Positions 8,001 through 60,868 of a stretch of DNA of 64,000 nt are shown here, one piece after another. The position numbers and the translations under genes were made by a program. The notes beneath the pieces were generated by a model, which was not told the DNA's origin, did no database searches, and was given only the letters and a program-made list of their open reading frames with translations. The DNA is from Planoprotostelium fungivorum (Eukaryota > Evosea > Variosea > Cavosteliida > Cavosteliaceae). The DNA lies in assembly GCA_003024175.1 (NCBI GenBank), contig MDYQ01000103.1, positions 1-64,000 of the forward strand, in the 5' to 3' direction. Position 1 is the first letter of the stretch. Every line of letters begins with the position of its first letter.

Positions 8001-8939
8001 ACTCACTCTGGAACCCTGTCCGAAAACAATCTCACTCTCTCTTCCATAGGAACACCTCCTGATAGCGAGACGATCTTCAATCTCTTCTCCACGTCGATCA
8101 TTCGATTGAATTGGATCAACTTCTCTTCTTGATCTTTCGCCAGAGCATTCAGTGGAAATAGATACAAGGCAGTGCTCGTTCGATTTTCATCTTTTGTCAA
8201 TGCCTGGTTCGTTCGTCAGACATCTATCCATCGATGTCACACATCGAGACTGACCTCGAATATGGGGAGATTGAAGCACAGAGATTTACCAGAGGATGTA
8301 GGGGTGGTGATGCAAAGTGATACGGTCAAAGAAAGATGAGAATAGAGAGGGAGAGAAGAGAAGGATATCATCTCTACCGGATTTGACCGCAGTTCGAGCT
8401 GATAGTTGATGAGAGAAGATCTTGTGGAAGCCTTGAGCTTTCATGGCGATCTTCATCTCTTCCGATAATTCGTCTGGGAGCTCCCGCAGTTCTGCGTTTC
8501 GACTCGGTTTGATCTCCCTGTATGAACGTCAACCGAGGATCTTAATGCTTGTTCTATCCTCTATCATATGTATGTACACGGTGATGAGTGATGTGATGAT
8601 GTCACATGGGGTCACATGATGGACACATGAGATGATCGTGTGATATGATCCGAATAGATGACTCACACGTGAACAAGCTCCTTGCGTCGATTCATGGCGA
8701 TCACCCGAAAAGATCGATGTGATATCTCCTGAACCTTTCGAAAGTCTAATTCGGGAAGCCTCGTCAGCTTCACCGGAACACCCTGTCCGCTGTCTCTGCG
8801 AACCATTCCCCTCTCTGTCTCTCAGTCTTCTCCTTCTCTTCCTCTCACCTTCGTCTCTCCTCTCTCCCTTGACTTCCTCTTTCACTCTTGACCCGTGGTC
8901 ATTCTGTCGTTTCGTGTCTTCTTGACGTCCCGCTTCCAT
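5034..8939 (-). CDS. DEAH-box SF2 helicase, MrfA/YprA-DUF1998 type
   Basis: An ATP-dependent helicase. Motif I is TPTSSGKS, motif II is LDEAH within VVLDEAHTYSGILG preceded by an NPDLLHHFL element, motif III is the ATA of FLIATATGG, and motif V/VI elements NALEAGVDID and RMGRAGR are readable across exon joints. The C-terminal third has the family's zinc-binding segment, with ETGGTGVCERIF followed by CPHC, GCAIC and NDCLVQKMG. That arrangement is known from bacterial MrfA/YprA (mitomycin-lesion excision) and its Hrq1-like relatives. The protein ends with a charged Lys/Glu-rich helix. One intron (7.69-7.80 kb) is a long purine/pyrimidine tract. MEAGRQEDTKR could be its own start, but an in-frame intron just upstream joins it to the RING gene, so it may be the C-terminal part of a larger protein. 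A DNA-repair role is inferred from family. Confidence 0.85.
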
Positions 8940-8986
8940 GAGAGCTGAACAATTTGTCAGCATCGTGGTGATGATCGCCATGATGA

Positions 8987-10766
8987 TCATGATGATCGTG
9001 ACACACCGAGATCGAGAGAAAAACGATCCGATGGAGCCTGTTGAGGTCTCTCCCTCTTTACATTTCGATTTTGTTCCTGCGTGTGAGCCAAACCTGCCAG
9101 AGATGAGACATCGCGTGAAAGAGATCGATCACCCATGCCATATCGACCTGTAGTCAGATTTCTCATGTGTTCTTCTTTCGTGACCAACTGGACTCTCTCG
9201 GCAGGTCTGAACACATTGTTCGAATGAGTGGCACGGCTGGCGGGAGAAGCTGTATCGATTCACATTTGTTTCGTCGTTCGTGTTCAAAGGTGGAGGATGA
9301 GAGGTAAATGATATCACCTGTGGGACTATCTTGCGTCTTTTGTCTCTTTCTTGTCCAAAAATCACGGGCTGGATCACTTGTGGGCGATTTCTGATCAAGG
9401 TGAATCCTTCTGTCACTGTCATCACTTCACCTTCTCCTTGTTCCTCTGTCCATCGTCACACAGATCGACGAGATCACTCTCGCGATTCACCTTCTGTCCT
9501 CCACGATCGACCCCGCGAGTCATCTGACTCATCTCCTGGACGTTCCGATTCATCACGTTGGGATGCACGTTCTCATCCGATATGTCGATGTGGATGATCT
9601 CCTTCGATCATCAGATCATGACACATCGGATGCTCCATGTCACCTTCTGTGGGTTCGTCTTTCTTTCTATCGTTCTGCGAAGGGGTGTGCAAGGTGCGGA
9701 TCTCTGCAGGGAACCGTCTCCGTTCAGTTTCGTCTGACTCAACGGAGGCCTTCGATTCATCGCGGGAGCGCTGTTGCTGTTATGAACGCCAGATGTGGTC
9801 CCTGCGGATATTGTCATCAGGGTGCATGAGGTGGTGGATGGGATGATGAGAGACACACGTGGCGGTGTGATGGAGAAGGAAGATGAGACATTCCAAGACA
9901 CGGAGGGTGATATGACGGGAGGTGATCGAGGTAAAGGCGAGGTGGAAGAGAAAGGTGATGTCGGAGATGATCGAGGTTGAGGTAATGGCATGGCCACGAT
10001 GGCTGCATCTGTCACAGAGATGAGTGACTCGATGTCTACACCGTCTTACTTCGGATGACTCTGGGTGTCGCTAGAACGGAAAGGTCTACGGGTTCTTCTA
10101 ATCTCTCTCGCTCTTCCATCCTGCGTTCGGTTCAGAGGGTTAGAGGAGGAACACGGTCACCTCATGGCCGTGGCGATGGCTACTTCATCTTCGGTCACAT
10201 TGGGTCGAAATGGACATTGGAATCGAGTGTGATCTCGGATTTTACTCCTCAATATCTCTCTGCATAAGGTCGAATGGGGACACGGTACCTGCAGCTGTAT
10301 CATACACCTGGATGGACGCGATGATCATCATACCGTGGCGAGCTCGCATACTTGAGAGTGGTCTGAGAAGTTTCCCACGGCGATGGATTGTGGACAACCG
10401 TGCGGGCAGGGTCTGATCAGATTATTGATGAGCCTCTGAATGGGTTTGTTGGGTCCGCACTGTGAGAGGCGCACCTGAAAATATTCAAACCATGTTTCGT
10501 CTTATAAACTTACTGGACCCCTGCAGATGGGACAATTAGGAGTTCTGAATTTTGTAAATCGATCTGATCATAATGAGGTCGACTCACATTTCGACGGATC
10601 GAGTGATGCATTGCACACAAAAAACACTATTACAGCATGGTGTCTCCAGATTCGTGTTCAAGGGGTATTGCAGACAGATGGGGCAGCGGAAGTCATCTTC
10701 TTCAGTACTGTTCTGACTGTTTCCAGAGCTCGCCAGCTGGCTGATACAAGAGTCGCTGGAGATCAT
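8987..10766 (-). CDS. RING / TRAF-type zinc-finger protein, probably N-terminal part of the helicase protein
   Basis: Starting at MISSDSCISQL, a RING finger follows within 40 residues (FRCPICLQYPL, then CCNSVFCVQCI, then NCPICRG), typical of ubiquitin E3 ligases. Next come TRAF-type zinc fingers (RPCPHGCPQS...DHSQVCE and VPCPHSTLCREI...DHTRFQCPF). After these is a roughly 250-residue Ser/Pro-rich and charged low-complexity linker. Reading the last exon straight through gives a stop at 8987. However, a normal-looking intron (8948-9007, GTGTGTCA...GTTCAG) removes that stop and continues in frame into the helicase N-terminus. Only 47 bp separates the alternative stop and start. Divergent from LIN37 with 104 bp between starts. 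The E3 call is confident by motif; substrate unknown. Confidence 0.8.
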
Positions 10767-29290: not shown

Positions 29291-32200
29291 ATGGAACATG
29301 AAGTTCTCTCTGCATTCAACAAGAAGAGTCCTAATCTTCCAAAGATTCTATCTCAGATCAAGTTCAAAGAAATAAAACAAGTGATTACCAAACGATGCAC
29401 CGATCGAGATGGAGATCCTACAGAATTTCTGAGGGCTATCTTCGAAGGTAAGTCCTCCTTCTTCAACCACGAGTCTTCTCTTGAAAGAGGAAAAGGTTCC
29501 CCACCAGAGACAGAAGAACCGAGGAGACTGAAGGCGATACGATTTGTTACCGAGTTACTGGAGACCGGTGTACTGGTAGACAAAAAGGCTACGTCTACCA
29601 TTGAGTTCATCCTCTCTGAATTGATCTCAATGAGCAGTGACAGCTTGAAGGACATCTCGAATAACATCGTCATCACTCTCCGTAGGAACGAACCTCACTA
29701 CACGGGGAGATCCTTTGAATTACTACCGAAAGCCGTTGGTACCGTGTGTCGTTTAGACGCCGTCCCCGGTAGTGCCTCCCCATCCGATTTCAGGACAGAG
29801 GTGGGAGGATCATCGAGTCGTGATCTGATTCGAGTGATGATGCCAGATCTCGTCTGATCTGTGCGACACCGAGTGGCCCACTCACATCGCTTGGAAGATA
29901 GTACAAGAGCTGCGTGATATCACCTTCAGTGAGAGTGATCTGAAGAGGATCATCGACAAGACGAGCAAGTGAGTGTATCAGACGTAGGCGTTCAATTGTT
30001 CTGACACGCTAGAGCGAAGAGTCCTCGATAAGGCTTCCATCAGCGACTCCTTACCTCTCATCAATAACTTTCTTTTACTCGTGCGACAAGGCCCAAAGGT
30101 AAGAGGAGAAGCAGATGAAACTGAATTCACACAGACTGCTGTTTTGACTTCGATCATGAATTATATGAATCAAGAGGAGGAGGGAGATAATGTGAATAAG
30201 AATCAATACTATGAGATGGAAGGCACGATCATCGCACAGATCAGAGCTTGCGATTACGACGGAGTGAGATCATTCGATGATGAATAGACTGACATGAATA
30301 GTCCATTGCTGACGAGTTTATCAAACTGATGAAGAAGAGTAGAGGCGAAACATGGACACCCTTTAACCTCGCCGTACTGCTGTCTATCGCAGAAGAAAGG
30401 AGATACGGAACGAAAATCTACGACTATTTGAAGCAGAGCATCAGCAATGAATACAAGAACAAAGTGCACCACAGGTCACCCTGGCTGAGCGGTGAGTGAG
30501 TTCTCTATCTCTTCATGACAGACGACAGTGATCACTTCGTTGCAAGAGAAGAATAAATCGATAGAGAAGGCACTGATGGAGACGATCCACCACGCCTCGA
30601 TGGGATGGGAGGGCATCATCCAGTCGATTGTACATTTCGGGATGATCTTGATGGATTCCTTAGTTCCTAAGTCTCCTCGTGAGTCGATCGATTGACATTG
30701 CATTCATCCCATCAGTGGTCTCTCTGGGCGAAAGAATCTTGTTCGAATGCTTCGAACGAGTTCAATCCGTTCAGAACGAAATCTTATCCACGGTGATCGA
30801 TCGCATCGTGGACAGCTCTAAAAACGTGTGGTATTACACGGATCTATTGCACCGAATCGCAACTTCTTCTCCCACACTCATCATGCACAATTACGAGAAG
30901 ATCAAGGTGAGTCGTGAGAGGAATCATAAAATTGATGGTGACAGACGATGTTGGACTATTCATCCTTCACCTACGTTCCTGATAGCATATTACGAGCACT
31001 GAAGCCAGCCATCGCGTTGCTCCCCCAGTTCATGGATCACACGATGATGGTGTTGAACAAATGTCTCAACAACAGAGATCTCGACTCTAGATCAGCCACC
31101 GTCTCTGGATTCTTGTTCCTATTGCAGGTGATGGACTTGATCTCTCTCTATTCACATCCGAAAGGTACAAGATAACCAAGGAGATCTTTCCACGAGTTCC
31201 GAGATATTAGATGTATTACAGAGATGTCTGGAACAACAGAATGGCATCAGAGAGAGATTGTATTACGGTCTCTTTCAAGTTCTAGAGGTGAGACCACTTC
31301 ACTTAGAAGATACGAACGGATACAGGCGAATCCTTCCATAGAAGATCAAGTGTTCGACATCTTTCTGTCCCAATTACTGCATTACTATGACCCACAAGAG
31401 AGTGCATCACCGTTGAAACTCAGTGAATGCATTCAAGAGATCGAAAACGATGAATGGGAGATAACGGAACCTCTCGATCACCTCATCAACGCCATACACT
31501 TGTCCATCGTCTGGAAGGACCTTCAAAACAAGGAGAAGGTGAAGAGAAAATACTTTTGAAATTCCTGACAGGGCCAGGGGACTAAGGGAGGGAGAGACTC
31601 TTCCTTTGAGAGACTGAAGGAATACCTGCACACGTTGATCAAGAGAATGCTGACAGCAGAGCCCGAGCAATTTGAATTAGACAAATCATCCGATTATACG
31701 AAACGTAACGTACAATTATCCAGCGAGGTGAAGAATTGATCTCGAAGAGTGACTGATGGATGTAGATATTGACAGGATGCATCGAGGCATTGATCTCTTA
31801 CATGGTACGAACAGGACATCATGCAGATGGTACACCACAAGGAAGCAATGGAGTGGAGGGAAGCAACGGACAGATCATATCTGAGGATTGTGTGAAGGGA
31901 ATGGTCAAACTCTTTGACTTCGCCGTCAGACTGAAGACAGCGGAGAGTGAGAGCATCAAGGGAGGGAAGAAAGGGAAGGAGAAGAACAAGGGTGGTGAGC
32001 TGATGGCTGAGTGGATTTCAGCTGAATGGACGATCAGAAAAGACCAAGAGCACAAAGAGTGCAGAGAAGGACAAGTGGACCATCTTCAGCTCAGAGACAC
32101 TGGTCGATCTGTTATCCGTTGCCACCGATAGTTCAATGAAGGAGATGCTTGACGTGAGACACGAACGAAGGAATTCCACTCACTCACACAGGCCACGTTC

Positions 32201-33932
32201 ACGTCTCACTTGTTTGGAAGCATCCAAAACCGACTGAAACTATTGCACGTGGAATACGAACAATACACGTCGAACAGCAGGGACAGTGAAGAGAAGGATA
32301 CGTATTGGTCAGTAGGCACCAACAGTGGATCTCGCAACGTCAGTCACCTCATGCGTATCTTGAGAGGCTTCTTGGGGAATCTTCTCATCCAGTTCTCATC
32401 GGGTGATGATGATGGCAAGCAGGTGTGATTCCATCAAAGACTCATTCACTCAACGACTTCAGGGTAAGAAATCGACTATCGTGGGGAAAGGAAGGTGCAT
32501 CGAATTGGTGGTAGATATCGTGAGTAAGAGACCACTGAGAGAGGTGAGACACGAGGAGAGAGACGTAGCTGAGAAGAGGAGGCGACAGAGATCATCAAGG
32601 GAGGATGGGAATCCATTCCAGGGGCGTCGATCACGGTGACGGAAGAATCTCTCACCAGCCGAGATCCATCCATCTTCGAGACATTTGTCAGTCTGACCAA
32701 CAGTTTCATCGATGACCTCAAGATGAAAGAGGCTGAAGTGTGCTTCGAGGTGGGTGGACAAGAGGAGTGGAGAGTGAAGAGAACAGATCATCATGCACTT
32801 GTGTACGTTCGTACCACCCGAGCAGGATCACTGGCACTGCTCGTGGTTGTTCGACATGTGCAAGAGAGAGATCCCTTCTGTCTCGTTGGTCAAGCACATC
32901 ACTCAACTCTATCTGGACATGTCATCTCAGTGAGTGTGTCTACCATCTACATCTGATCGATGCAGCAAACCGAATAAGATAAGGATATCCATAGCAGAGG
33001 ACATACAGAGGACGGTGGGGCTGGTCGACGAGGAGAATGCAGAGAGTGAGGTGGACATGAAGATGATCACCAAGGAGAATGTCTCCGTCATCATCCATCT
33101 CCTTCTCAACTCCACCGATTCACTCTTGAAATTGATCCATTGGGCCATGAAGAACGTTCGAAAAGGTAGGGTGACACACAGAGAGGATATGACGACAACA
33201 GTTGAGGAGACTGTGGAGCTGGATCAAGTCAGTGGAGTGAGGAGTATCTACGATTCGATCTATCGCAGGTTACTCTCCATCATAGAGGTAAGGGTAGGAG
33301 AAGGGTGTCACTCATCAGAGCAGGTGATGACAGCACTCACTCGATCGTGTATCGCAGGAAACGAGGGAGTACAATTGATGAAAGTGATGATACAGATGTA
33401 TTCCATCCTCAAGTGAGATGTCTTTCTATTCGGAAGTGAGTACTGATGGACATAGACTGTGTGTCGATATAGAAGCTTCGAAGAAGAAGGCCTACTCGGA
33501 ATTATTTCAAACGATGATCGATAACTCCTTTGATATGTCTCAAGCGTCATCTGCATTCAGAAATTGGGTGGACAATGGAACGACGGATGACTCCACTAAG
33601 AACAAATGTGAGATCCTGTGTCTATCGTTTCTGACCTTCACAGCTCTTCTCAAACAACAGCGAAAGTTGGCACCCTCCTTGGTATTCCAACAGGAAAAGT
33701 ATGAAGCCACTCTTCTCTCTTCTGACTTGAAAGGGAAACGTCTGCAGAATCTGAGACGGTCTACGGTCAGAGATTTTAAGGTGATAGAGTGCGTAGAGAT
33801 TGGAGTGGCTGACACGAACAGTTGAACATCTCACGAGACGATAGTCCAAGAGAGGAAGAGAGAAAGTTTGGTCAGAAGAGGGCTGCAGAGGAAGAGAAGC
33901 CGAATACGAATGGAAGAAAGAAGAAGAAGTAG
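29291..33932 (+). CDS. FANCI: Fanconi anaemia group I protein (FANCI)
   Basis: An alpha-solenoid partner of FANCD2 in interstrand-crosslink repair. Start MEHEVLSAFNKK aligns with human MDQKILSLAAEK. Conserved landmarks in order are EFLRAIFEG, RSFELLPKAVGTV, YEMEGTIIAQI, FNLAVLLSIAEERRYGTKIY, a DSLVPK segment, MLDYSSFTYVPDSILRALKP, VLNKCLNNRDLDSRSATVSG, DVLQRCLEQQ, EPLDHLINAIH, FELDKSSDY-like and the C-terminal TVRDFKLNISRDD. The tail is basic (GRKKKK), as in human. About 1,250 residues over some 20 short exons, near family length. The ubiquitin-acceptor lysine is kept but the following S/TQ cluster is missing. The stop lies 9 bp from the stop of the convergent WD40 gene, so the 3' UTRs overlap. 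Confidence 0.9.
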
Positions 33933-44845: not shown

Positions 44846-47380
<2,535 letters not shown>

Positions 47381-47434
47381 TCGGAGAAATAAACACAACC
47401 CGAAGTCCAATTCACTTTGTAACGAAGGAAAGTA

Positions 47435-49729
47435 ATGACTACAAGCAGAGAGGCACTCTTAAAGCGTTTGGGTAATCCAGAGAAAGGATCCTTGCATTGG
47501 GCCGCTCTTCAAGATGATCTGGCTGGTGCGATAGAGTTAATTCGAAATGGGGCTGATGTCAATGCACAAAGTGAGGTCTCTCCGTTGTGAGATCAAGATT
47601 TGAACATTGATAGCCAAGGAAGGCGTCACACCTCTCGATGTGGCTAGAGAATTCGAACATGGGGTTGTATATCAGCTACTCAAGATCTCTGGAGGTGTTC
47701 CCGGCGAAGAGGCAGGATTTGATAGAGGATTGGGACTAGTAGACCTCGCCTCTGCTCAGTTGGGATCTAAAGTAATCAAGTCTATTGGCTCCCGCTGACG
47801 ATGATCAGATTATCTGGACGAATAATGAATGGTTCGCAGCAGCCTCAAACTTGCTCAAACCTGGGAGAGGAAGTTTTTCACCTCAGACGGTAAATTGACG
47901 AACAGACCCCACACTGAATCATACTAGTTCGTCTCCACGGGGCAGTTGTATGACGGATGGGAGACGGCCAGGCACGGGGCGTTGAGAAGAGGAGGAAGGG
48001 ACTTCTGTTACATTCAACTCGGTAAGAGATGTGAGGATTGCGATGAGTGAAAAGAGTAGGTGTACCAGGTGTGGTGAAGGGCTTCGATATCGATACGAAT
48101 CACTTCACGGGAAATTATGCACCAGCGGCCTCAGTGGATGGTTATTGCGCCGACAGAGGTGATGGCTGGCACAGAATGCATCTAATCCTTCTCAGAGCTG
48201 TCCACAGAGGAGTTGAATGTCGTCGTGAGTGGTATTGTGGAGGATGTTCATAACAACAGACAGGAATGGACAGAGATTTTACCGGAGGTGACCCTCTCAG
48301 CCAGTTCGCAACACTATTTCGCAGCAGCATTGGTTTCGAGGTAAATGGAATTCAAAGTCCGTGTAACAAGAGACAGGTGGACTCACCTTCGGCTGAACAT
48401 CTACCCAGACGGTGGTGTTGCCAGATTCCGAGCCTTTGGAGATGTCACACCCAAATGGAACGATGAGAAGGAGGTGTGTGGAATAGAGAGGAAGAGCTGA
48501 ATGAAGCAGGAGGAAATGATCGATCTGGCGCTCATCACCCACGGAGGAAAAGGAGTCTTTGTGTCAGACAGTTATTTCAGCCATCCAGATAATGCCATCA
48601 CTCCGGGGAGGGGCATCAACATGGGGGATGGATGGTGCGATGAAGGATGGAAGGGTCATTGAAGGAGATAGGGAAACCAAGAGGAGTCGATCACCGGACC
48701 ACAAAGAATGGCTTGTCATCCGGCTGGGTAGGCTGGGGAGTATCGAGGAGATCGAATTGGGTAAGTGATGAGGGAGAAGGAAGAGTAATCGAATCAGATA
48801 CAAATCACTTCAAAGGAAATTATCCGTGGGGTGTCGTGGTGGATGGATGCTTCGGGGTATGAACATGAAGGAGAGGCGCGGATAACACTCGACAGGAGGG
48901 AGGAGAGTGGAGAGAGATGCTTCCTTTGACTCATTTGGAGGGTCACAAGCAACAAACGTTTGTGCGAACCACGGATAGTCAGGCTACAGAAAGCATCGCG
49001 ACATTGAGAGATGTGGGATTGGTCTCTCATGTTCGTGTGACCATCATCCCTGATGGAGGGATCTCTCGTATCAGGTTCTATTCAACATCTGCTCCCTCTC
49101 ACCCATGTCAGATTGAGAGGCAAGCCATTCAGTCGAAAGAGCTTGACGAGAGAGATGTTATCTACATCGTTGACCAGTCACATACAATTACTCGGTATCG
49201 ATGAGGGAAGGTAATCACTCTCTCACGGACTTTGATCAATTGTTGCAGGTTTCATACATTTGGATCCGTGTCACAAGTGCTGACAGATGAGGGGTGCAAA
49301 CAATGGTTAGCATCTACCACGGGAACAATGAGTGTGATGTGTAAGCAGGGGATCGCGTTACCTCATGGAATGGTACAACTCCAACAGGTGAGAGGAGGAG
49401 AAAAAGACAAACTGATAGTAGGTAGAACTTTGAAGGAGAGTGCACGTATGTCCCTCTCGGAGGTGTGGCGAAATATCTAGTGGTAGTAGCTCTTCCCAAG
49501 ATAAGAGGAACCCGTCCCGATTTAATGAATCTCTCGGGATTCATCAATGAAGGTAACAGAGCCGTGCACATTCATCAAGGTGTATGGCATTACATTGCCC
49601 CACTGGGTGAGTTGAATTAGATCTTGCATTGAATGACCTTGATTAGACCAGGTTGGCCAGTTTCTGGTTATCGAATCAGGCCAAAAACGGTGGTCTCAGA
49701 TTTCCCCAAACAACATTCTTCTCAAATGA
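47435..49729 (+). CDS. Ankyrin - allantoicase - ureidoglycolate lyase fusion
   Basis: Residues about 1-75 are an ankyrin-like unit ([38 protein letters not shown]). The middle is allantoicase, with two homologous halves: [36 protein letters not shown], then [52 protein letters not shown] and [16 protein letters not shown]. The C-terminal about 130 residues are ureidoglycolate lyase-like ([48 protein letters not shown]). Allantoicase makes ureidoglycolate plus urea from allantoate and the lyase makes glyoxylate plus urea, so the fusion joins consecutive steps of purine degradation. At least twelve tiny introns. Only 54 bp separates it from treS upstream. The frame was carried across every domain junction by eye. 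Confidence 0.87.
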
Positions 49730-49732
49730 TAC

Positions 49733-49955
49733 ACAAGCATCATAGTAAAAGGGAATATTATAGCGGATTCATCTACAACTCACCTCACACTGAATGCTCA
49801 CCTCCTGCGTTCTGTTTGGTGATCCTCTGCAAAACATTTGTAAGTGTTTGTGCGCTCTGTACTCGCTTGTGCAGTCAGGGCGGAAATCTATACATTCAAA
49901 TCAAACAAAAGACACAAGGAGGCAAAAGGCAGCTGTATATAAATAGGCTAAGCTG
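49733..49955 (-). repeat. Dispersed short repeat, copy A2 (longest)
   Basis: In reverse orientation this holds the same core as A1: CTTACAAATGTTTTGCAGAG, GAGCATTCAGTGTGAGG, GATGAATCCGCTATAATA, CCCTTTTACTATGATG. It extends further 5' with CCTTGTGTCTTTTGTTTGA (shared with A3) and a CAGCTGTATATAAATAGGC block (shared with 57.05 kb). Its 3' end starts within a few bp of the stop of the allantoicase fusion. Confidence 0.75.
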
Positions 49956-49963
49956 AAGTAGAA

Positions 49964-50640
49964 TCAATTTATTTGAGGCTCACAAGGCCGTTCAATTGTT
50001 CTTGACGATGTCCTTTGCTGCGTAAGAAAACCTGGGGTGATGTTGGAAGTGCTCAATCCCTCTTCTCTTAGACAAGCTTTCTGACCAGCACTTGCAGTTT
50101 GGGTGATGTAAGACAGCTGTTCTCTCCGGGTGTCTCCGCCATAGTCCTTGGCCGCCTGTGCAAGATCTGCAGGAGTCTCAAAAGCTTTGGGAGGCATGTT
50201 TGGTGATGGTGAAGTGCTAGCTTGTGTATTCAGTCGGAAATGACGATTGAGCACTCTGCAGTTGGAGAATCCCTCCTTCTCTGCTTCCGCCATGAGATCC
50301 TCATGAGGGCGGTCTGCCACAAGGGATTCTGAGTAATGGAGTAAAATTGTAACTCCGTTTCACATGAAATGGCGGTCATGCGTGATGAGGTTCCTCAGAT
50401 CATGAGATGACTCGCTTTTGTTCATTGAAACCAACGGAAAATGCAGAGATGCGTTACATACCTTGAAGCCACCAAATTACAGACATGCAGCATGACCACA
50501 GCACCGCTCCTAATCTCACTCCCCGTCCAAACATACCTCCTCATTTCTCTTATCCGCTTCGCCATACACCTTCCCGTCCTGAACCGTCTCGTCCTGCTCC
50601 TCCACCATCGCATGGCCCTCCCCAGCATTACTGAGGATAA
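49964..50640 (-). CDS. Unrecognised ORF in the repeat-rich zone
   Basis: A minus-strand frame of about 110 residues contains DLMAEAEKEGFSNCRVLNRH, SPNMPPKAFETPADLAQAAK and ends PCEPQIN; AATAAA overlaps its stop codon. A second possible upstream exon (50.52-50.64 kb) is acidic (GHAMVEEQDETVQDGKVYGE). No domain is recognised. It lies between inverted copies A2 and A3 of the dispersed repeat, so it may belong to a mobile element rather than to the host. Confidence 0.35.
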
Positions 50641-50689
50641 TCTTGAGTCACTTAGATAAAGTCCTCACTCAAAACGTTTGCCACTCGTC

Positions 50690-50875
50690 TCTAAATCCTT
50701 TCTGCCAGGGCGTCAGGTCTGTTTGTGTGCCCTGCATTCAATTCTTTCTCATATGCTGAATTTCTCAATCCACTATATGGTACAATCTTATAAGATACTG
50801 TTCATATTTAGCATCTGTATCATCATACTGTTCAACACATTTTTGAAACACCTCAGGACTACCCCACATTCAAAC
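50690..50875 (-). repeat. Fragment of an unidentified repeated coding element (copy B1)
   Basis: The minus strand encodes pieces such as PEVFQKCVEQYDD, DAKYEQY and KIVPYSGLR, which reappear in the copy at 59.35-59.79 kb with about 85% DNA identity by eye. It is a degenerate fragment; the family is unknown. Confidence 0.6.
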
Positions 50876-51111
50876 TCGTACGAACTTCTATGTCTAGACT
50901 TGACTTTGGAGGCGGTATGTCGAGCATCGGCGGCGGAAGCGGCTATGGCGGCCGCTAATCTGATTCCAATCTAATGCCACAACGGACAGCATCACCGGCT
51001 GTTGTCATAAACATAAACAAATTCAAATTTGTTGGCTTTGTATCATGAGAGTGAGAGTTGCAGAGAAATGCGCTAGGTTGCTCATATTTTCGCTCATCTC
51101 ATCGGCTGTGC

Positions 51112-51302
51112 ACCTTGTGTCTTTCGTATGAATTGAATGCAGAGATTTCCACCCAGTCGCATAAAGCATGCGCAGAGCACACGAACGCTTACAAATATTT
51201 TGCACAGGATCTCCAAACAGAACACAGGAGACGAGCATTCAGTGAGAGGTGAGTTGTAGAGAAATGAACTATAATACCCCCTTTTACTTTGATGATACTC
51301 AC
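51112..51302 (+). repeat. Dispersed short repeat, copy A3
   Basis: Shares with A2 the CCTTGTGTCTTT, GAATGCAGAGATTTCC, GCTTACAAATATTTTGCA and GAGTTGTAGAGAAATGAACT blocks, then CTATAATACCCCCTTTTA. It is inverted relative to A2; the pair flanks about 1.15 kb containing the unknown ORF and fragment B1. Confidence 0.75.
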
Positions 51303-51469
51303 ATTCAGCCAATCTGAATTCCCGATTTTGTTAACACGTGATCAAATGTTGAATGGTGGTCTCGTGGGAAAAGTGCCCACCTGTCCAAAAGACAATTTGG
51401 TGAGAATTCGTCATTTTCTCAAGCACAACGCTAGTTATACGTGTTGATGTTCTTCTTTACGAGCACAGA

Positions 51470-53048
51470 ATGACCGAAAAGCGAGAAAGTGATTATGAGA
51501 CGAAACGTTCTCCGGGGGAACAAGTCAACGAGCCCGACCTCACCTGGGACAAACGTTTGGACACAAACACGTTCAGTATGGGCGTAGCAGAACTTATGCG
51601 CCGCAAGAGCCCTGATCCAGTAACCAAAGTGGGTTGCTGCATCCTGGATGGTCACAGTGGCAGAGTGAGCCCAGTCATTGACGTTCTTCCTCGAGCCTGA
51701 TAAACATGACAGATTTTGTCTGCAAGTTATAACGGTTTAGTGGCTGGGTTATACACCCAACCGAATACTTGGGCAAAGAACAAAGACAACTACCTTCAAC
51801 ACGCAGAGCGCAATGCGCTAAATCTGCAGCCCAACGAGTTCAACCATTGTAATGATATAGTTGTGTACACTACCATGATACCCTGCATCAAATGTGCAGC
51901 TATGTTGATGCAGGTGGAGACTTGAATTCTCTATTATTAAGCTGACAATCACAGCACAGTACACAACAAATTATATACAATGTAGCAGCAAAGAAGTATT
52001 ATGAGGAATCAAAACCTGCTTTTGATCAGGCTCAGATTGGCTGTATGTGAGTATATCATTGGGCGAGTATAGATAACTTCCTGACAGCAGCTTGGGCAAT
52101 TTGTATGATGATGCTCTTGGTTACATCACCTTAAAACCATACGGGAAACACCGGGATCCGGGCTTTGAGAAAGTCGTCAAACTTGAAGTTGCTGAGAAAG
52201 TGCAAAAGGCTACAATTACCAAGTGGTCAGAGATCCATATGAGTGTCGCAATGTTAGCAGCAAAGCGATGCAATCAAGGCATCGATCCCAGTGTAAGATC
52301 TGGATGTTGTATCGTTGAGAAGCACACAGAAAAGGTAAACCTGTTGCCAGACTCAAATCTAAATACACTAAAACGACTAATTCATAACAGATTCTCTCGT
52401 GCGGTTTTACTGGTCTACCCAAGCAATTGAAATTTGAAAAACCGAATGAGAAGATGATCATCTCAGCCATTGGCAATGCTTTACGTTTTGCGGGAGATGT
52501 ACAAGGTTCTACTATATATTGCATCAGAAGTCCCACAATGCATGACATCATAGAGTGTTGTCAGGTGATATACTCATGTTATTCCCATCTCCATCAAGTT
52601 CCTCTGATTATCAATCAGAGGGGAGTAGCAAAGGTATACTGCTTTGATGATATTCCGGAGGCTATGCATCGTTTGGTTTCTGAGCATCCTATCTGCCTCA
52701 GGTTGGGATTGCTGTGTTAAAATCACTTATTCTTCCAGGACCTTTGATACAAAGGAAACTGGCAACTATTACGAGGACATTGGATGGTGCAAAATTGAGA
52801 GAAAAGATGGAAGTTCATGTGATGATTCGTATGGTGAAAGGAAAGGACAATCCTCCATCATTCAGATGCCGACCGAGGAGGAGAGGAAATGTGAATGGGT
52901 TCAATACTGCAAGGACCAGCAAGACCTGAACCAGAAGTGGAGGGAGAACAAGTTACCTATGAGCGAAATCAAAAAAATGCTCCCAACAAGGCGAGAGGGG
53001 ATCCTTTCACCCAAAACCCTCCACTATGATGACCAGGGAAATCATTAA
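51470..53048 (+). CDS. Double-domain dCMP/cytidine deaminase-like protein (CDADC1-like layout)
   Basis: The first domain has the complete zinc site of the dCMP deaminase type: GCCILDGHSGRILSASYNG, LQHAERNALNL (His ligand, catalytic Glu) and TTMIPCIKCAAMLM (two Cys ligands). The second domain repeats the fold (MSVAMLAAKRCNQGIDP, SGCCIVEKHTEKILSCGFTG, MIISAIGNALRFAGDVQGST) but reads SAIGNAL where HAERNAL should be and SPTMHD where PCIKC should be. It therefore cannot bind zinc in the usual way. A hydrophilic C-terminal tail with a Lys-rich KLPMSEIKKMLPTRREG follows. Deamination of dCMP or cytidine by the first domain is inferred; the second may be structural or bind a ligand. Two-domain deaminases of this kind include vertebrate CDADC1. 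Confidence 0.82.
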
Positions 53049-53194
53049 GCGGCTGTGTTGCCGAGGACCAGATTCACCTGCTGTTGTCTGATAAACTTGC
53101 ATTCAAAAATTGCGCCTTCTTGTCACCAACACTGACCAAAGCAGACCATAAAAAACAACAGAGGAGAGGGACAAAGATGATCTGTAGGAAGGAT

Positions 53195-53432
53195 CTGGGC
53201 CCAGAGGTGAGCATTCAGTGGCGAGTTGTAGATAAATGCACGACGATGTCCCCTTTTACTCTCTGGACATCAGCAAGACACGACACAGGAAGTGTCTGTT
53301 TGCACAGATAAAAGCCATAAAATCGACTCTGGATATAATTTGAACAGAGCACAGGAAGCAAGCAAACAGAGAGCAGGGTGTTGTAGATAAATCCGCTATA
53401 ATATCCCCTTTTAATATGATGACAAGCACTGT
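53195..53432 (+). repeat. Dispersed short repeats, copies A4 and A5 in tandem
   Basis: A4 (53.20-53.27 kb) has AGAGGTGAGCATTCAGTG, GAGTTGTAGATAAATGCA and CCCCTTTTACT. A5 (53.34-53.43 kb) has GAGCACAGGAAGCAAGCA, GTTGTAGATAAATCCGC, CTATAATATCCCCTTTTA and TATGATGAC. They are same-orientation partial copies about 75 bp apart. A5 points at the 3' end of the next gene, 75 bp away. Confidence 0.7.
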
Positions 53433-53505
53433 CCTTCCTGTGTGTTGCTCACAGAGCGCTCAGAGATAAAAGGAATGCAATTTCATCGAATATTTTACAT
53501 CTCGA

Positions 53506-54921
53506 TCATGCTGTGATGGTTTTCCATATGTACTGCCACCATTCTTTGATAGAGGTCGGTCGGTTCTTGTTGTAGACGTCCGTCAAACTATCTGAGATGG
53601 CTTCTGACATGGCATCCCAGAATTCTATGTCAGCCAGAGACCATGACCGGTCGAAGTGTTCCTTGGATCAAATGAGTTTTCTCTTTCGTTCACAACCATT
53701 ACCTTGGGTAACTGCATCTGCGAACTGAGTTGTATACTTCGCTTATATGCATTGAAATATCTTGCGATTGGGAGAGCAATTGCATTGCTGATGTAGTCTA
53801 TCTCTTGATCAAACAGAGAGGGGCTCAGGACTACACGATTTAACCGAGTGAAGAAATTGAAGTGGATGTTGTTCACTCTCTCTACATCTGTGGGGAGCAT
53901 CACTTGCACTTCCATATCCATTTCTCCCTCTGTCATCCACCCCAGCGGACCACTAGCATTCTTGCTTAGGAGGTCCACTCCTAGTCCATAGATGCGTAAC
54001 ATCATCTGGATGCTTCAGATCAGATGTTTGTCTTCAGTCCATTGTTACCTCTCTTCCTTCGTTCTGTCTCTCTGGGTGTAGTTCACGGTAGGCGAGCCGA
54101 CAACCATCAAAGACACCATCGATGCGTGTAGAGCATATGACATCGTACAACAGGTACCTCCTCCTTATTCTCGGGCACTTCAGTACCTCTATAAAAACGG
54201 ACACTGCTCTCTGACTGGCTTCTGGAAAACTGAGTTTGTCAGGACGTAACCTTGATGATCGGCGTACTAGAGTGTAAAATGACAGTCTTGAACAACAACG
54301 TTTGTAAAGTGGAAATCGCCCCAGAAGATGGGCCAGTTACGGGGTTTCCACGAGGGATCCTTCCACTCTGTTCTTCTGTCCACGACTCCTCTCACCCCCT
54401 GGACTTTCATCTCTTTTACCCAGCCTCTACCTGTCCCCACTCAGCTTCAAGGAGAATGAATGTCGTGTCACCTAATATGAACCACAGTGGTGATATCTTC
54501 AGTCTAATCTTATCAATAGACAATTCGAAGATGCACCAATTCTCCTGGGGTGGCACTGGCTCTGGTCGAATGACTGTGACACTGACGCAATGTCAATTCT
54601 GCTGTCGATGCACTGACCTACTTCTTCAGGTAAAATACTCCTTTGCTCAGTGCTTTTGCCCATGTAGAATTCTGGTATGTTATATTCAACCCAGTCTGCT
54701 TCTCTAAATATTGGAACGCTCTTTTGTTGAACCATTCTGCCACATCTCAGTACAAGAGTGAATGAATTTTCACCTTCTATATATCCTGAATTGTACAAGA
54801 AGAGCAAGGTACTGGACAGAGCGATCAATATACTGACGCCAGTCATAAGTAATTTGGTCGATGATCTGACAAGAACTTGTGATGCTGTCTCATATATCGA
54901 CTCATTAACGCCAAAGAACAT
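53506..54921 (-). CDS. Unrecognised membrane-anchored protein
   Basis: Start MFFGVNESIYETASQVLV, then one hydrophobic helix (LMTGVSILIALSSTLLFLY) near residue 30, giving a type II or cleaved-anchor topology. Later exons read ENSFTLVLRCGRMVQQ, CPRIRRRYLLYDVICSTRID, IYGLGVDLLSKNASGPLGWM, SPSLFDQEIDYISNAIALPI and FDRSWSLADIEFWDAMSEAI, ending WWQYIWKTITA. About 330 residues. No catalytic motif or domain is recognised and I do not assign a function. The exon joins around 54.1-54.5 kb are the least certain. Confidence 0.5.
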
Positions 54922-55397
54922 CCTAATCAGTTAATACAGTCGTCTTTCTGTGTAGTCACCATCGTTTCCATTTTCCTCTTGTCTGACCTTCCGTACGTTC
55001 TTCTCTTTTATACTGCTGTTCTCTTCGTCCCTCTGATGCTTTTGTGTCTACTCCTAATCTCCACCGCGTCTCTTTGCGCGAACCACGTGCCTGATCAGTA
55101 GGTTGGAGGACACTCACAAATACGGTACTCACTGAATCTATTACACGAGACAATGGTGAAGGTGTCTTCTCCCGTCCATTTTGAGAAAGGCATCGTCGCT
55201 GGTGTCCGTTTAAGTTTTACATTTATGGTGTGTTTACCTGATGCAATGACAATGTTCTGATTTTGAGAACAAACTTTGGGTGCCACATGCTGTCCAGCCT
55301 CTTCAAAGTTGTGTGTCCTGTAATTCGTTGTAGTCTGGCGCTGAATTATTGAAAGCTCATATTATTGGTGGGATTTGATGAGAGCTTACAAGAGTGG
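54922..55397. other. Divergent intergenic region
   Basis: About 475 bp between divergent starts of the membrane protein and the CEP95-like gene. I see no exon, repeat copy or recognised regulatory motif. Confidence 0.4.
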
Positions 55398-56938
55398 ATG
55401 ATTGAATTAGAAGAGCAAGGTGACATCTTATTTCGCGGCGGGATTGAGGGAAACTAATAACATCAGATGTGGTGGCTTCGGTCAATTATGTGCTATCTTT
55501 GTGTGGATACCACGAGCGGGTGCAAAGTTACCTAGAATTTACCGCATCCATGTTCATTTGCTTGTATGAATCCCTATTCTGTCACTCGATTTCCAATGTC
55601 AATCGGCACCCAAAATCGCTGTCCGACCATCACCAGAATTATCAGATGTTGTTATCTGCTATACAACAACAAGTAAGTCGGCTGTGTTGCACGAAACGCT
55701 CATTGGATCAGATCCCTGGCTTAGATCTATCTCACATCGATCCAGATAGAGCTCTTGAGGGTGACAAGAGAACTTTGTTGAATTTAGCAGAGATATTCTA
55801 CGAGCTAGGAAGAATAGTTGCTGAGCAAAACGGTACACCCTATCGAGAGAAACACTTCATCCCAAAAGGCACTAATGGCAAAACCATCTCAGATTGGCAG
55901 GTGACAGGAATGGAAATAGCAGCTTTTGATTATTATAGGGATCAGAGATATTCTCCACGAACTGTGCAAGACCTTCAGACCCAGAAACAAAAAGGCTGAA
56001 CAAGAAACCGCACAAAAGCACAATTGAACTCCATTGCACCACTCTAAGTCAAAAGGAACCAGCTGGACAGAGAAGCTGGATGGACGATGCACAACATCAT
56101 GGGCATCAGGATAGGAGTGCGAAGATCTACAACAGCTTTCTAAAGGATTTTGAAGCCACAAACCATAGAGTATTGAACATGAACGTGTCATATCTCAAGA
56201 TGCTTAGCAGGAGCAGCTGAATATGCGCAAACAAAAGCTCCACCAAGAAGCCAATATGAAAATGAAAAGATTAGCCATAGTGAGATCCTATATAGAAACG
56301 CCAATAATGAGCTGCAGCACCAGATGAGGCAATTATCACAAAATGAGCATTTAGAGAGACATTCAAGAGCAATTCATCAAAGTCAACAAGAAGAGTTATT
56401 GTACAAGAGCTGGTATGTATTGCAATTGATGATTATACTAAGTATACCAAAGGTTCAATGGAATGGTAAAAGATCAGAAAGACAGGCAAAGAAGTACAAA
56501 AATGCAAGCAAATGAGCGTCGATTGAAGTATTACCAAGGTCAACTTGAGAAGCAGCAGGAGTTGGAGAAATAGTAAGTGACCAGTACACAATGTTATGTC
56601 CTCATCTATTCAGCTACATGGATCAGTACCAAATAATGTCCGAAAACTCAGTCAATCAGCAAAAAGAGCAGGACATATTTGAGGCTGCACAACGTCAGGT
56701 GAATAATAGATAATGCACTAATCCTGAATGTAAATAGGAATTGTCAAGTTTACGTCAGGAGATGAAAAACAAACTACATCATCAACTTCAACTTCTGAAA
56801 TGGCAGATTCAGAGCAGACACGAGCAGATTCATCATATGACAATGAACAACCAATACTTGACCTCTAAGATACAATGGCAGACACCTTTTTATATACCTA
56901 GTTCTTATGTAGAGCCTACAAATGTGGAGCATAACTAG
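55398..56938 (+). CDS. CEP95-like centrosomal/basal-body protein (NN-CH plus coiled coil)
   Basis: The N-terminus fits the CEP95/CCDC45 calponin-homology-like module: MIELEEQDVVASVNYVLSLC, LEFTASMFICLYESLF and HIDPDRALEGDKRTLLNLAE with EIFYELG. The GDK..L.NL.EIF block is the most diagnostic. The rest is a Gln/Glu/Lys-rich coiled coil (ELQHQMRQLSQNEHLERHSR, YYQGQLEKQQELEKYYMDQY, SLRQEMKNKLHHQLQLLKWQ), as in CEP95, ending NVEHN. About 420 residues, shorter than human CEP95 (821). It would sit at centrioles or basal bodies, implying the organism may have a flagellate stage or keep centrioles. Family call is good but not certain. Confidence 0.7.
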
Positions 56939-57383
56939 CGCTGGAGTAGAAAGACAAGTATATCTAGAAGATGAATACACCTTCTCTGTCAGATAGCATA
57001 TGATCTGTAGTGTCAAGGATACCCTCATCCACTGCTTGTTGCAGGAGGCATAAGGCAGCTGCATATGAATATAGGCTATCACTGTGAGGACACTCTGCCT
57101 TTATTCTCTATATTTTGTCTAGTATCTCTACAGGGCTCCAAATGACTGCAAAAAAATAGAGGTATAATCATGAATTTATCCATTCACCAGATGGAGATCT
57201 ACATGTTCAGATTTGATTTAGCTTTCTGCCTTTTCAGACATGCAGTGATGGTGTGCTTCTCAGTTTGGTCCACTTGATCAAATCTCTCACTGCAGGCTCG
57301 GATTACAGTCATTTATTTATGACAAACTTGTCCTTATCTCCTACTCTTTCTCTTTTTCTTCTATCAAATCCTGTAGCCTTTCT
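56939..57383. other. Intergenic with a repeat scrap
   Basis: No gene seen. At 57,044-57,086 GGAGGCATAAGGCAGCTGCA and TATAGGCTATC match the far 5' portion of repeat copy A2, in the plus-strand sense of A2. Confidence 0.45.
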
Positions 57384-59206
57384 TTGCATCTCTTGTTTTT
57401 CATTTTCATACACATACATACAATGACAGATAAAGGGGAATGGCTCATTGAATTAGACAGATGGACAATAAAGAAGCTGAATAAGCTAGGAGGATTGGAC
57501 ATGCACACTGATAAAGCTTACTGGATCAACTTCAGAGGGTACTGTAGCCTATACAGCAAAGCTACAGCTACGTATTTTGGATACTCATTAGACAAAACAA
57601 TGAACAACCCTGCAGTGAATATCGACATTAGAACAGCAAAGGCAATAGGAGTAGAAATAACAGTGAAACGGTTCGGCCTCATGCTGAAGGCCGCACAATA
57701 CTATACATAGAACAGCTCATACAAGGTAACAGAATGATCACTACCAACGAGATTGATAAAATAAATATGGACACTCCAGCAGACAACAACAAATACAACA
57801 GATGGACGTTCCAACTTCAGAAAGCAATACGTAAAATAGTTCAATTTGAGTCGCATAACTCAAAGACATGATCACCAAAAAAGAAGAGAACAAAACAAAC
57901 AAAGATTTGGTAAGAGATATAAAGAAATAGAGAAGGGAAACGAACAAGCTGATAGAATGGCAAGTACTGCATATATTAGGGAGAACATAACGTCAACACC
58001 AGACTACACACTCGAAACAGGAGACAAATCAATCACTAAGAATACAAGAGAACATATAAGGAGGATGATGAACAAATTATCAACAAAGGATTGGAGAAGG
58101 AGACAGAAAGCATAGTCAGCATTCTTCACTCACCATGCAGACCAACGCTCATTCCCTGGGAAGAAATAATCATATGGCAACCTGATTACAAAAATTATAA
58201 CAGGGACAATTTGGACAAACAAGAGAAAGAAACAATCACAGAGGAGGATGGATGTAAATTCTGTTCTGATCTCCTACCTGTGGTGTATGGTCACTGCATA
58301 AGAACTAAACAGTTCAATGAGTCTCTGTTTATAAAGAATGATTTCAAACCAACGAAAGTCAAGGTATTCCTTTTCAATGAATGTGCATTGAATGTGTTTC
58401 TTGGTTGCTGAGTTTTCACTGACTTTTCTCCAAGTTTTCCAATTTGTCAATGATGTCAAACACCACCAACACGTTCTGGGAGAATGTATTTTCACTAGAG
58501 AACTGAACCATCAGCTGTGGGCAAATTTGAAGACAAAATCTTTTGGATGAAGCATATGCACTTTGTAAAATCATCTCACAAATGCATTTTGCTGCACCAA
58601 TTCTGCATAACAGATAAACAAGGTCGTAAAACTTGATTTATTTCATTCACTTTGGTATTTGCTGATTCCTACGCGTTCTTGTGTTTTCTCAATGGTCTGA
58701 TTACGCTGTATGGTATGCAGTCTGACACTTGATGGTCAAGAAAATATTTTTATATGTATTTTTTAATACATGTATAAATTATTAATAAAACAAAAGGGGA
58801 AGAAAGAAGAAGAAAAAGGGGGGACAGAGTCAATTGATTGTGCAGAAAATGGCTTGGTTAAGAGCTAAAAAGCTGGACAAAGCATATGATAGGTTCTCTC
58901 CCAATAGTCCAAACATTTTATTCTTCTCAACAAGGAGTCAACTCCCACCCCCAGTGGACTCAGGGACCCCACACCACCAGGCAAAATCTTACCCCTATCT
59001 ACCTGTGCACAGATATTCAGAATGATTACCATACCCCCCTCCCAATACCTCAATTCACATATATCTCTTTTGCTACTTTTTTTTGGGTCTCTCCACTGGA
59101 CTGCAGAGTCCAAAGTTATCAGATGGCCAGCAATGGCTTAGCAGCCCCTAATGGGGCCAAACTGATATCTGAATAAAATTTGAAACCTGAACCTGAACTG
59201 AACCTG
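57384..59206 (+). mobile_element. 3' portion of a LINE (non-LTR retrotransposon)
   Basis: One frame encodes ESHNSKT, then an RNase H-type segment KGNEQADRMASTAYI (the GNExAD motif) and a C-terminal zinc-like element split over frames: CKFCSDLLPVVYGHC and then HVLGECIFTRELNHQLW, the usual end of LINE ORF2 proteins. Upstream, LIELDRWTIKKLNKL belongs to the region between reverse transcriptase and RNase H. No reverse-transcriptase catalytic motif (FADD) is present, so the copy is 5'-truncated, and the frame is broken at least twice (near 57.71 and 58.41 kb). The 3' end has a perfect 14-bp palindrome GCCCCTAATGGGGC (59,145-59,158), ATCTGAATAAA and a CCTGAA-repeat tail. The same tail recurs at 60.74 kb. 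Confidence 0.72.
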
Positions 59207-59349
59207 TTCATCTTCATACACTGCTTCTTGTTATTGTATGATGCTAGCTCTTTATCAAGGTAATCTCCTGGGCTCCTACTCACACACTCTCTGATACCCT
59301 TAAGTAAATGTTGAATCTTCATCCTGGGAGGTGGTTGTAACACTGTTTT

Positions 59350-59785
59350 TCTGTTTGTATGTCCAGCATTTGATTCTTATTCATATGCTGAGATTCTCAA
59401 ACCACTATATGGTACAATCTTGTACTGTTCATATTTAGCATCTGGATCATTGTACTGTTCAACACATGTTTGAAACACCTCAGGAGGTGTATGTTTTGCC
59501 ACATATCCTTTAGGACAGATATTTATTGTATGCTTGCAGTTTCATGACTGGATTTTCATCTAGAGCTACTTGAAACTGTTCATTATCTGCCAACATCTTA
59601 ACTGCTGCAAGACTGACCTTTCCTGTTTGATGTCTAAATTGTTCATTCAAGCTGTTGAAAACAGGAAAGTCTATGAGCTCAATAATGTTATCTTGTGTCA
59701 GATAATTGAGAAGTTGACTGATGGGCATCTCATGAAATATTTTCGGTTCAGTCCTTTCCAGTTTAATAAAGTCGTAGTTCATTTT
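59350..59785 (-). repeat. Unidentified repeated coding element (copy B2), degenerate
   Basis: The minus strand starts MNYDFIKLERTEPKIFHEMP and continues LNYLTQDNIIELIDFPVFNS, QTGKVSLAAVKMLADNEQFQ and, in another frame, PPEVFQTCVEQYNDPDAKYE with KIVPYSGLRISAYE. The last part matches copy B1 near 50.7 kb. The reading frame is interrupted. I do not recognise the family and it may belong to an old mobile element. An ATATAATCTGC-type A/T-rich leader lies upstream. Confidence 0.55.
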
Positions 59786-59789
59786 TGTT

Positions 59790-60620
59790 TATGATATAAT
59801 CTGCAACATACATACAATATATAAAACAAATTTATGTGATTTCTTTTTAGAAAATGAGGAGCGTGAAGAACATACAAACATGCAAACAACTTTTGTACAT
59901 CAATTTAAGATAAAATGTCTCAGAAGAAATGTATGTGATGCAGCTCAGGACTATCAGAGGAGCTGTACACTTGGTACAAGTTTAGCTACTTGAAATTAAA
60001 TATCATTTTAGGAGATGAACACATCTGTAAGGAAGCGTAGAATTGATTTGTGATTCCGAGTTGTAGACCAAAATATTGGAACAAGATATCTCTAAACAAC
60101 ATACTACTTGGTTGGTCATAATAAAAGCATTCAGAGCCTTCACTTCAGAAGTCAGGAACCTGTCTTTACTATTGAATTCATCATTGAAAGTGAGTCCCTT
60201 TCTTACAACATCAGCAAGTATCCCGCTAAGCTCAACAATAGTAACATGACCTCCAAAACAGGATAATAACCAGAAGAAAAGTCATGGATACATATAAGAT
60301 CAGCCATAGATCATTAAGTTGTCTACTATCAATATCAACCATTTCTGGAATCACCAGAATGGCTCTGGACATTCTTCTTCACACATGTCCTTCATAAATG
60401 AGTTTCAAGCATGAATCTGAACAATACCTCCATTCTGTGTCTGTTCTCAAATGTCTCCCCTCTGATTGCCTCTACTGGTGAACATGTGATCATGGACAGA
60501 GAAAAGTCTGTTGAACATCTGCACAAGCTGCTCCAAGGACTCTGTATCAATAGCTTTGATGACAGAGTACAATCAAATAAATTGTCTGTCTAACTCCACA
60601 CAGTCCATTGTGCACATATG
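59790..60620. other. A/T-rich region without recognised genes
   Basis: About 830 bp with stops in all frames and no exon-like stretch I can support. A short frame (60.41-60.59 kb) with SNVSPLIASTGEHVIMDREK is not convincing. Confidence 0.45.
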
Positions 60621-60785
60621 CACATAGATTGCATAAAGCAAGTACAGAGCGCACAAATGCTTACAAATATTTTGCAGAGGATCACCAAACAGAACACAGG
60701 AGGTGAGCGTTCAGTGTGAGGTGAGATAGTTCAGCAATGGGGTCAAATTGGTCATCTGAATAAAAAAGCCTGAACCTGATTGTTT
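60620..60785 (+). repeat. Dispersed short repeat copy A6 joined to a LINE 3' tail
   Basis: GCATAAAGCAAGTACAGAGC, GCTTACAAATATTTTGCAGAG and GAACACAGGAGGTGAGCG belong to repeat A. At GTGAGGTGAGATAG the match to A ends. The next bases, CAATGGGGTCAAATTG..CATCTGAATAAA..GCCTGAACCTGA, match the LINE 3' end at 59.15-59.20 kb. This looks like a very short 5'-truncated LINE insertion into repeat A, or a SINE borrowing a LINE tail. Confidence 0.65.
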
Positions 60786-60868
60786 CATTATTTAGGGATT
60801 ATCGAATGGCTGCTTTGGCTGTGCGGCTCCTCAATCTAAACAGGGTCACCCTCTAAAAAGAAATCTCC

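Follow-up and report, generated by a model that had tools for sequence, protein, structure and literature searches.

A TRAF-like RING module beside a YprA/MrfA/HRQ1-type helicase in Planoprotostelium fungivorum: two tandem genes or one protein

We analysed a stretch of 64,000 nucleotides from Planoprotostelium fungivorum (Evosea, Variosea), namely positions 1 to 64,000 of contig MDYQ01000103.1 in assembly GCA_003024175.1, which as a whole we call the window. In this intron-dense eukaryotic sequence, exons for a RING finger and two TRAF-type zinc fingers (10766-10050) are followed directly downstream, on the same minus strand, by a gene for a YprA/MrfA/HRQ1-type helicase. A preliminary description of this DNA had the RING module spliced in frame onto the helicase. 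Our preferred reading, to which we give a probability of roughly 0.55, is that the locus holds two tandem genes that meet at about 10.04-9.76 kb, the helicase gene starting near 9760. The principal alternative, a serious contender that we nevertheless hold to be the less probable of the two, is one gene for one protein of about 1,370-1,400 residues, in which RING and TRAF zinc fingers, a low-complexity linker and the helicase follow one another. All such weights are matters of judgement. Since this window has close tandem neighbours, 54 and 328 bp apart, and since novel fusions are generally rare, the starting odds are against a fusion; from there, the margin obtained when a gene boundary may fall anywhere gives the fusion no help, and the lack of poly(A)-like words between the two modules does.

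As two genes, the upstream one would run from ATG 10766 to TAG 10038 and encode, by arithmetic, a small TRAF-like RING E3 ubiquitin ligase of 187 residues; going by its family, the RING would bind an E2 enzyme and the TRAF zinc fingers would support the RING or bind partners. The downstream gene would lead from ATG 9760 via exons 9601-9007 to 5034, about 1,100 residues by arithmetic, and give a 3'-5' helicase of YprA/MrfA/HRQ1 type whose N-terminal extension is of low complexity. Its DEAD/Helicase_C motor may translocate 3'-5' on single-stranded DNA under a canopy formed by the MZB zinc domain, as in MrfA, and its role could be the repair of DNA crosslinks, as for HRQ1 of yeast and plants.

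Continuity into the helicase

Exon models were hand-built from the DNA letters and then tested by homology, and continuity was scored with a small semi-Markov gene finder that trained itself on the sequence of the window and compares the best fused path with the best stop-and-restart path. In its first version the fused path won by 16.2 nats, a margin larger than that of 156/156 null pairs, and 8.7% of 138 scoreable within-gene introns scored at or below the locus. We discount this seemingly clear result: the same finder had also merged a TBC-TLDc gene with a UBA-PARP gene and an alpha-amylase gene with an ankyrin-allantoicase gene. Under helicase-only training, moreover, the locus score was reached by 11/156 null pairs at 180-bp gaps (3/156 at 300 bp), a count that speaks against the fusion, and the predicted gene started at 9553, leaving the RING out. 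Because two neighbouring pairs that we read as separate had been fused, the finder was retrained on corrected genes. Its training set retained a wrong helicase intron (7654-7574, later corrected to 7612-7574, with no retraining afterwards), took gene ends from finder calls except those corrected via domain ends, and carried gene labels (eIF3a, GMC, GH15, kinase-WD) assigned by eye.

For comparison, 14 other genes in the window were used to set gene ends next to gene starts at a distance of 180 bp, giving 182 artificial pairs. Forcing a split at 9010-8790 in the retrained finder costs 16.9 nats. The artificial pairs reach at most 13.1, and five native pairs treated as separate score -25.2, -5.0, -2.1, +9.4 and +9.7, so that the locus lies above 182/182 and 5/5, in sets that reuse the same genes and hence are not independent. 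This is a point in favour of a fusion, and coding sequence probably does continue from exon 9249-9007 into the helicase. Continuity at 8.99 kb does not, however, place the RING in the same chain. The proposed splice of RING onto helicase is accordingly supported in its downstream half, where the junction is favoured by 16.9 nats, and not established in its upstream half, since the margin drops to 8.0-8.6 once the boundary may fall anywhere.

The same comparison bears on a split at 8987, which would leave a 473-residue RING protein ending there and a helicase starting at 8806 or 8939. The in-frame TGA (8989-8987) that ends the unspliced RING-side frame and the ATG at 8939 are both present, as first described; the start context of M8806 is ordinary (0.57, inside the span of the 13 starts compared), and a protein that begins there has 47 residues ahead of the first one aligned with YprA. 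Genes in tandem only 54 bp apart exist in the window (amylase and allantoicase), which disposes of the argument that 47 bp would be too short a space between two genes. Against this boundary, its score is 16.9 nats below the fusion and about 8 below the split at 10038/9760, a poly(A)-like word is not found within 180 nt after 8987, and the context of M8939 is poor (-2.92, under all 13 compared predicted starts). We therefore regard a boundary at this point as very improbable, and if there are two genes, the helicase probably does not start at ATG 8939. The context of M9760 is ordinary (0.35) and that of the RING's own M10766 (-1.4) likewise falls under all 13 compared starts, on a score that was trained on those 13 predicted starts or nearly the same set.

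Position of the gene boundary

When the boundary was left free within 10160-8790, the best split combined the RING stop TAG 10038 with ATG 9760, and the interval between them (10035-9761) is the weakest link of the fused model in the gene finder. Separate genes score 18.8, a value that includes a fixed cost of 14.1 nats for the extra gene, versus 27.5 for the fused path; at the default boundary cost the margin is 8.6, or 8.0 with the helicase out of training. The corresponding margins are 8.6 (amylase/allantoicase), 6.7 (TBC-TLDc/PARP), -3.6 and -34.8 for native pairs and 8.4 to 26.8 for single-gene windows, where 10 of 11 exceed 8.6; one of the five native pairs and three of the 14 single-gene windows were unscoreable in this test. 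The locus thus stands at the top of the native-pair class and at the bottom of the single-gene class.

In the hand-built fused model this weakest link overlaps a Ser/Pro-rich linker exon (10008-9644) that also contains ATG 9760. Its part 10008-9802 is 69% C+T and lacks stops in two of the three frames, for which reason an open frame there tells little. It has a poor coding score in all frames, the model frame reaching -5.8 per 100 nt compared with a 5th percentile of -1.4 among 113 exons of at least 100 nt, and the gene finder's own fused path omits it. Taken segment by segment along the fused model, its frame outscores both others in 10 of 12 cases, ties with one of them at 8944-8849 and loses at 9390-9318, and it wins strongly in exons 9601-9431 and 9249-9007, a point that can be counted for the fusion.

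Several observations nonetheless weigh against a boundary at this position. The fused path is still the preferred one in the test with a free boundary, the sets that calibrate this test are small, with scores for four native pairs and 11 windows, and those pairs were called separate by domain content rather than by transcripts. The score of 10008-9802 is only moderately below those of two homology-supported RING/zinc-finger exons (-3.6 and -3.7), and the gene predicted by the self-trained finder starts within the RING exon, at 10611, and ends at 5034. Finally, the words ATAAA, AATAA or ATAAT, which occur within 60 nt of 11/17 gene ends versus 8.4% of random positions and 3.8% of coding-exon positions, are absent from all 1,354 nt of 10160-8807; by our estimate, this absence favours a continuous gene by a factor of about 2.5 to 4.

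A further point for a single chain comes from the motif PsiKxE, which is the consensus for sumoylation. It occurs three times in the linker and four times in the helicase C-terminal tail (each count reached in 1/2000 shuffles) and not at all in the 782-residue core, as counted on an uncorrected 1386-residue model that follows the route of the preliminary description. Two of the three linker motifs, however, sit in an exon that depends on a 34-nt intron, discussed below. A regular-expression count of motifs resembling SUMO-interacting motifs (SIMs), pursued for the linker, gave 3 over the whole model with 2.95 expected and is not above chance.

Introns between the linker and the helicase

As first described, the frame can be followed from the RING across the zinc fingers and along the Ser/Pro linker, and the open chain that exists from RING to helicase counts for the fusion. 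The existence of a joining intron is, however, what chance gives. An in-frame GT-AG bridge is present in 182/182 artificial pairs and a single-intron bridge in 177/182, and a single intron with a donor of at least 3.0 and an acceptor of at least 2.2, near the level of the intron at the locus, in 39/182. As every artificial pair is bridgeable, joinability is no evidence of fusion. In a compact, intron-dense window of this kind, apparent fusions need transcripts or relatives.

The intron invoked in the preliminary description, placed there at 9007-8948, is a GT-AG intron that does remove the stop and yields ...RFSLDL-ALMEAGRQED..., with corrected coordinates of 9006-8945 (62 nt). Compared with the minus-strand training introns, its donor (3.1) and acceptor (2.3) both rank above the 5th percentile and below the 25th, and near its end stands CTGAC, which we take to be branch-like. 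The claim that this one intron joins both frames fails, for ALMEAGRQED is out of frame with the helicase at the exon boundary that follows, ELVHV/EIKPSR, whose sequence matches YprA. Given this difference of frame, the route needs a second intron of 34 nt (8848-8815), and the bridging open segment ALMEAGRQED...VKEEVKGERRDE (8944-8849), where the model frame ties with another, is an exon only on that route. None of the 155 model introns is shorter than 35 nt, the shortest having that length, although the finder permitted 34; with 20 nt permitted and a flat length prior, it used one intron of 22 nt, one of 24 and otherwise at least 35, lengths of 35-42 being commonest.

Two routes do without the 34-nt intron, either by taking 9006-8815 as a single intron of 192 nt or by combining introns 9006-8860 and 8848-8813, the latter 36 nt long. 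The combined route scores best (13.8) and contains an 11-nt exon, itself unusual; the single intron scores 4.9 and the route first described 4.5, a score that carries a hand-set length penalty of -9.2 for 34 nt and would be about 10.5 with the 35-nt value of -3.2. The junction peptides of the three routes differ (RFSLDLGETK, RFSLDLALMEAGR and RFSLDLERGMVR). The bridging peptide was also compared with the helicase tail, and their likeness was set aside as weak, its score of 41 being reached by 11 of 4119 six-frame segments, among them the peptide itself and one antisense intron segment.

Intron 9006-8945 could also serve as a switch, its retention giving a RING-only product and its splicing the fusion. 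Retention would introduce a stop codon whose first base is intron position 18, and the donor at 9006 scores 3.1 versus a training median of 6.2; yet a weak donor is no evidence of regulation, and we consider that both products are made in this way to be the least probable reading of all.

The RING-TRAF module

The RING, the TRAF zinc finger and the helicase family were all rightly named in the preliminary description, RING, zf-TRAF, DEAD, Helicase_C and MZB being recognised. The first exon (10766-10588) holds M10766 and the RING finger (CPIC...PCC...C..C), supported by the model and by homology, and the model exon 10544-10514 finishes the RING (NCPICRGP). A first TRAF-type zinc finger (CPHGCPQ...H..VC) is encoded by exon 10474-10334, covered by the model and by the match to TRAF6, and a second (CPHSTLC...H..FQC) by exon 10288-10161, where zf-TRAF matches residues 109-146 below its cut-off. 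The exon MEERERLEEPVDLSVLATPRVIR (10120-10050) comes next, and its unspliced reading stops at TAG 10038-10036. In the linker, the exon with the Ser/Pro-rich stretch is followed by EIIHIDISDEN...SDLVDLCDD (9601-9431), where the model frame outscores both others by a wide margin, by KSPTSDPARDFW... (9390-9318), with a better score in another frame, and by the exon ending ...RFSLDL (9249-9007), in which the model frame is best in both halves tested and which runs unspliced into the TGA at 8989-8987.

TRAF6 (PDB) matches residues 23-166 with an E value of 3.8e-10, covering RING and TRAF zinc fingers, while the Pfam matches are both below cut-off (zf-RING_2, 23.7 bits vs 27.3; zf-TRAF, 20.6 bits vs 27). 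By its sequence the upstream module is a predicted zinc-binding RING of TRAF6-like type. Pfam matches to the 1386-residue fused model at E 0.1 include no MATH (TRAF-C) domain. The combination of RING and TRAF zinc fingers is common to this module and to TRAF6 and TRAF-like RING E3s; the RING of TRAF6 has PCGH, whereas that of the locus has PCC. Among the literature matches listed, a TRAF-like E3, TrafE, is reported from Dictyostelium. In viral contigs, the RING module gave one pattern match, unconfirmed by tblastn with a single-sequence query that finds close relatives only.

The helicase

From M8806 to the TAA that ends at 5034 (8806-5034), the helicase is complete, with 898 residues after one correction; of its 21 introns, 20 are GT-AG and the remaining one is AT-AC. 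DEAD (96.5 bits) and Helicase_C (56 bits) are both above their Pfam cut-offs, and MZB (MrfA Zn-binding, DUF1998) matches at the C-terminal end with 28 and 30 bits vs a cut-off of 24.2, over a cysteine cluster CPHC...GCAIC. The catalytic motifs are intact by eye once one intron is corrected: TPTSSGKS (Walker A), VVLDEAHTY (DEAH), FLIATAT (motif III region) and QRMGRAGRRG (motif VI). This correction came from the YprA alignment, which exposed a spliced-out motif III region in the first model; the exon preceding the corrected intron (7612-7574) extends through QFLIATAT and so retains it. The closest solved structure is Bacillus subtilis YprA/MrfA (PDB 6znp, E 1.1e-60), and on these matches the downstream gene is assigned to the YprA/MrfA/HRQ1-type helicases.

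Other models match more weakly. The winged-helix model PF22982 (WHD_HRQ1) gives 14.2 and 15.1 bits vs a cut-off of 27, where the YprA fragment gives 50.4, and the best NCBIfam match, TIGR03817 (294.9 bits), is far under the model cut-off of 874.1; we take the helicases of TIGR03817 to be SftH-like. At E 0.1 the motor matches DEAD, Helicase_C and MZB and no SNF2 model, and a single-sequence query, which finds close relatives only, returned no relatives of the helicase from viral contigs. The C-terminal tail (5189-5034, minus strand; VKMEQVKEERVKAERVKEE) holds the four PsiKxE motifs in close spacing.

The AT-AC intron ATATCCTT...TTTCTTTGAC...AC (8368-8317) is required for the Walker A frame and looks like a minor, U12-type intron by the consensus for that class. 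Minor introns are numerous in some Amoebozoa, for example 265 in Protostelium aurantium according to passages of PMC10639083.

Other genes in the window

On the minus strand (17862-12714), a TBC-TLDc gene (ending ...DFKILSVEVWGVQ, stop 15423) is followed after 328 bp by the UBA-PARP gene (ATG 15094), the two having been merged by the finder. The alpha-amylase gene (stop 47380) and the ankyrin-allantoicase gene (ATG 47435), in tandem on the plus strand (46968-47570), represent an extreme of compactness, with AATAAA 7 nt after the amylase stop, inside the 54-bp gap. About 20 kb from the helicase lies a gene for the crosslink-repair component FANCI (29630-33932, plus strand; Pfam S1, HD1, S2, HD2 and S4), convergent with the next predicted gene at a distance of 9 bp. 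The region 48769-60798 comprises 12 kb without a finder-predicted gene, and its G+C content goes down to 0.38 at 56-60 kb.

Comparison with known systems

Residues 48-583 of the locus helicase align with 26-552 of MrfA/YprA (PDB 6znp), and a second, weak stretch covers the C-terminal zinc region; identity with the YprA fragment is 32%, and the DEAH box, TPTSSGKS and GRAGRR are retained. Unlike MrfA, the locus helicase is encoded by an intron-rich eukaryotic gene and has a charged C-terminal tail with four PsiKxE and either an N-terminal extension or a RING neighbour. HRQ1 carries DUF1998, and plants have DEAH helicases with IBR-RING, on which our literature search found no paper. Passages of PMC12458937, a preprint, describe the zinc-domain canopy of MrfA over a motor that translocates on single-stranded DNA. 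They also report finding YprA homologues in eukaryotes, which were similar to the non-defensive homologues of prokaryotes and were left out of the set; this is neither for nor against a fusion. Eukaryotic HRQ1 (yeast Hrq1, Arabidopsis HRQ1) is MrfA-related and acts in crosslink repair (parts of PMC6947026 and PMC12458937), and the locus helicase can be likened to it by published description.

Published links between HRQ1 and E3 ligases may be read in favour of one protein. According to passages of PMC9488787, cisplatin leads to degradation of Hrq1 in yeast, and loss of the E3 Rad16 largely stabilises the protein; in PMC6947026, Arabidopsis HRQ1 is placed in a common pathway with FAN1, a reference title adding RAD5A. 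Against one protein, a combination of RING and HRQ1/YprA was not found among the keyword-based literature matches listed. If the locus encodes two genes, as we prefer, they are ordinary neighbours, yet the bridging controls remain useful.

Should it encode one protein, it would combine in cis the activities that yeast keeps in trans, those of the E3 Rad16 and of Hrq1, point to ubiquitylation where the helicase acts and offer a natural test of the yeast Rad16-Hrq1 link. Such a protein might work like Rad5, Rad16, Uls1 or HLTF, its motor carrying a RING E3 to DNA lesions, with PCNA, repair partners or the helicase itself as possible targets. Rad5, Rad16, Uls1, Irc20, SHPRH, HLTF and TTF2 all combine a RING E3 and an ATPase in one chain, as passages of PMC3796546 list them. 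Rad5-type motors are of the Snf2/Swi2 type, whereas the motor of this locus is of the YprA/HRQ1 type with MZB, the RING would be N-terminal, and there would be one chain only if the two parts are fused. A TRAF-like RING E3 united with an HRQ1/MrfA-type crosslink-repair helicase would then mean that the Rad5/HLTF logic had been invented independently on another family of helicases, a prospect that we put forward tentatively and at less than even odds.

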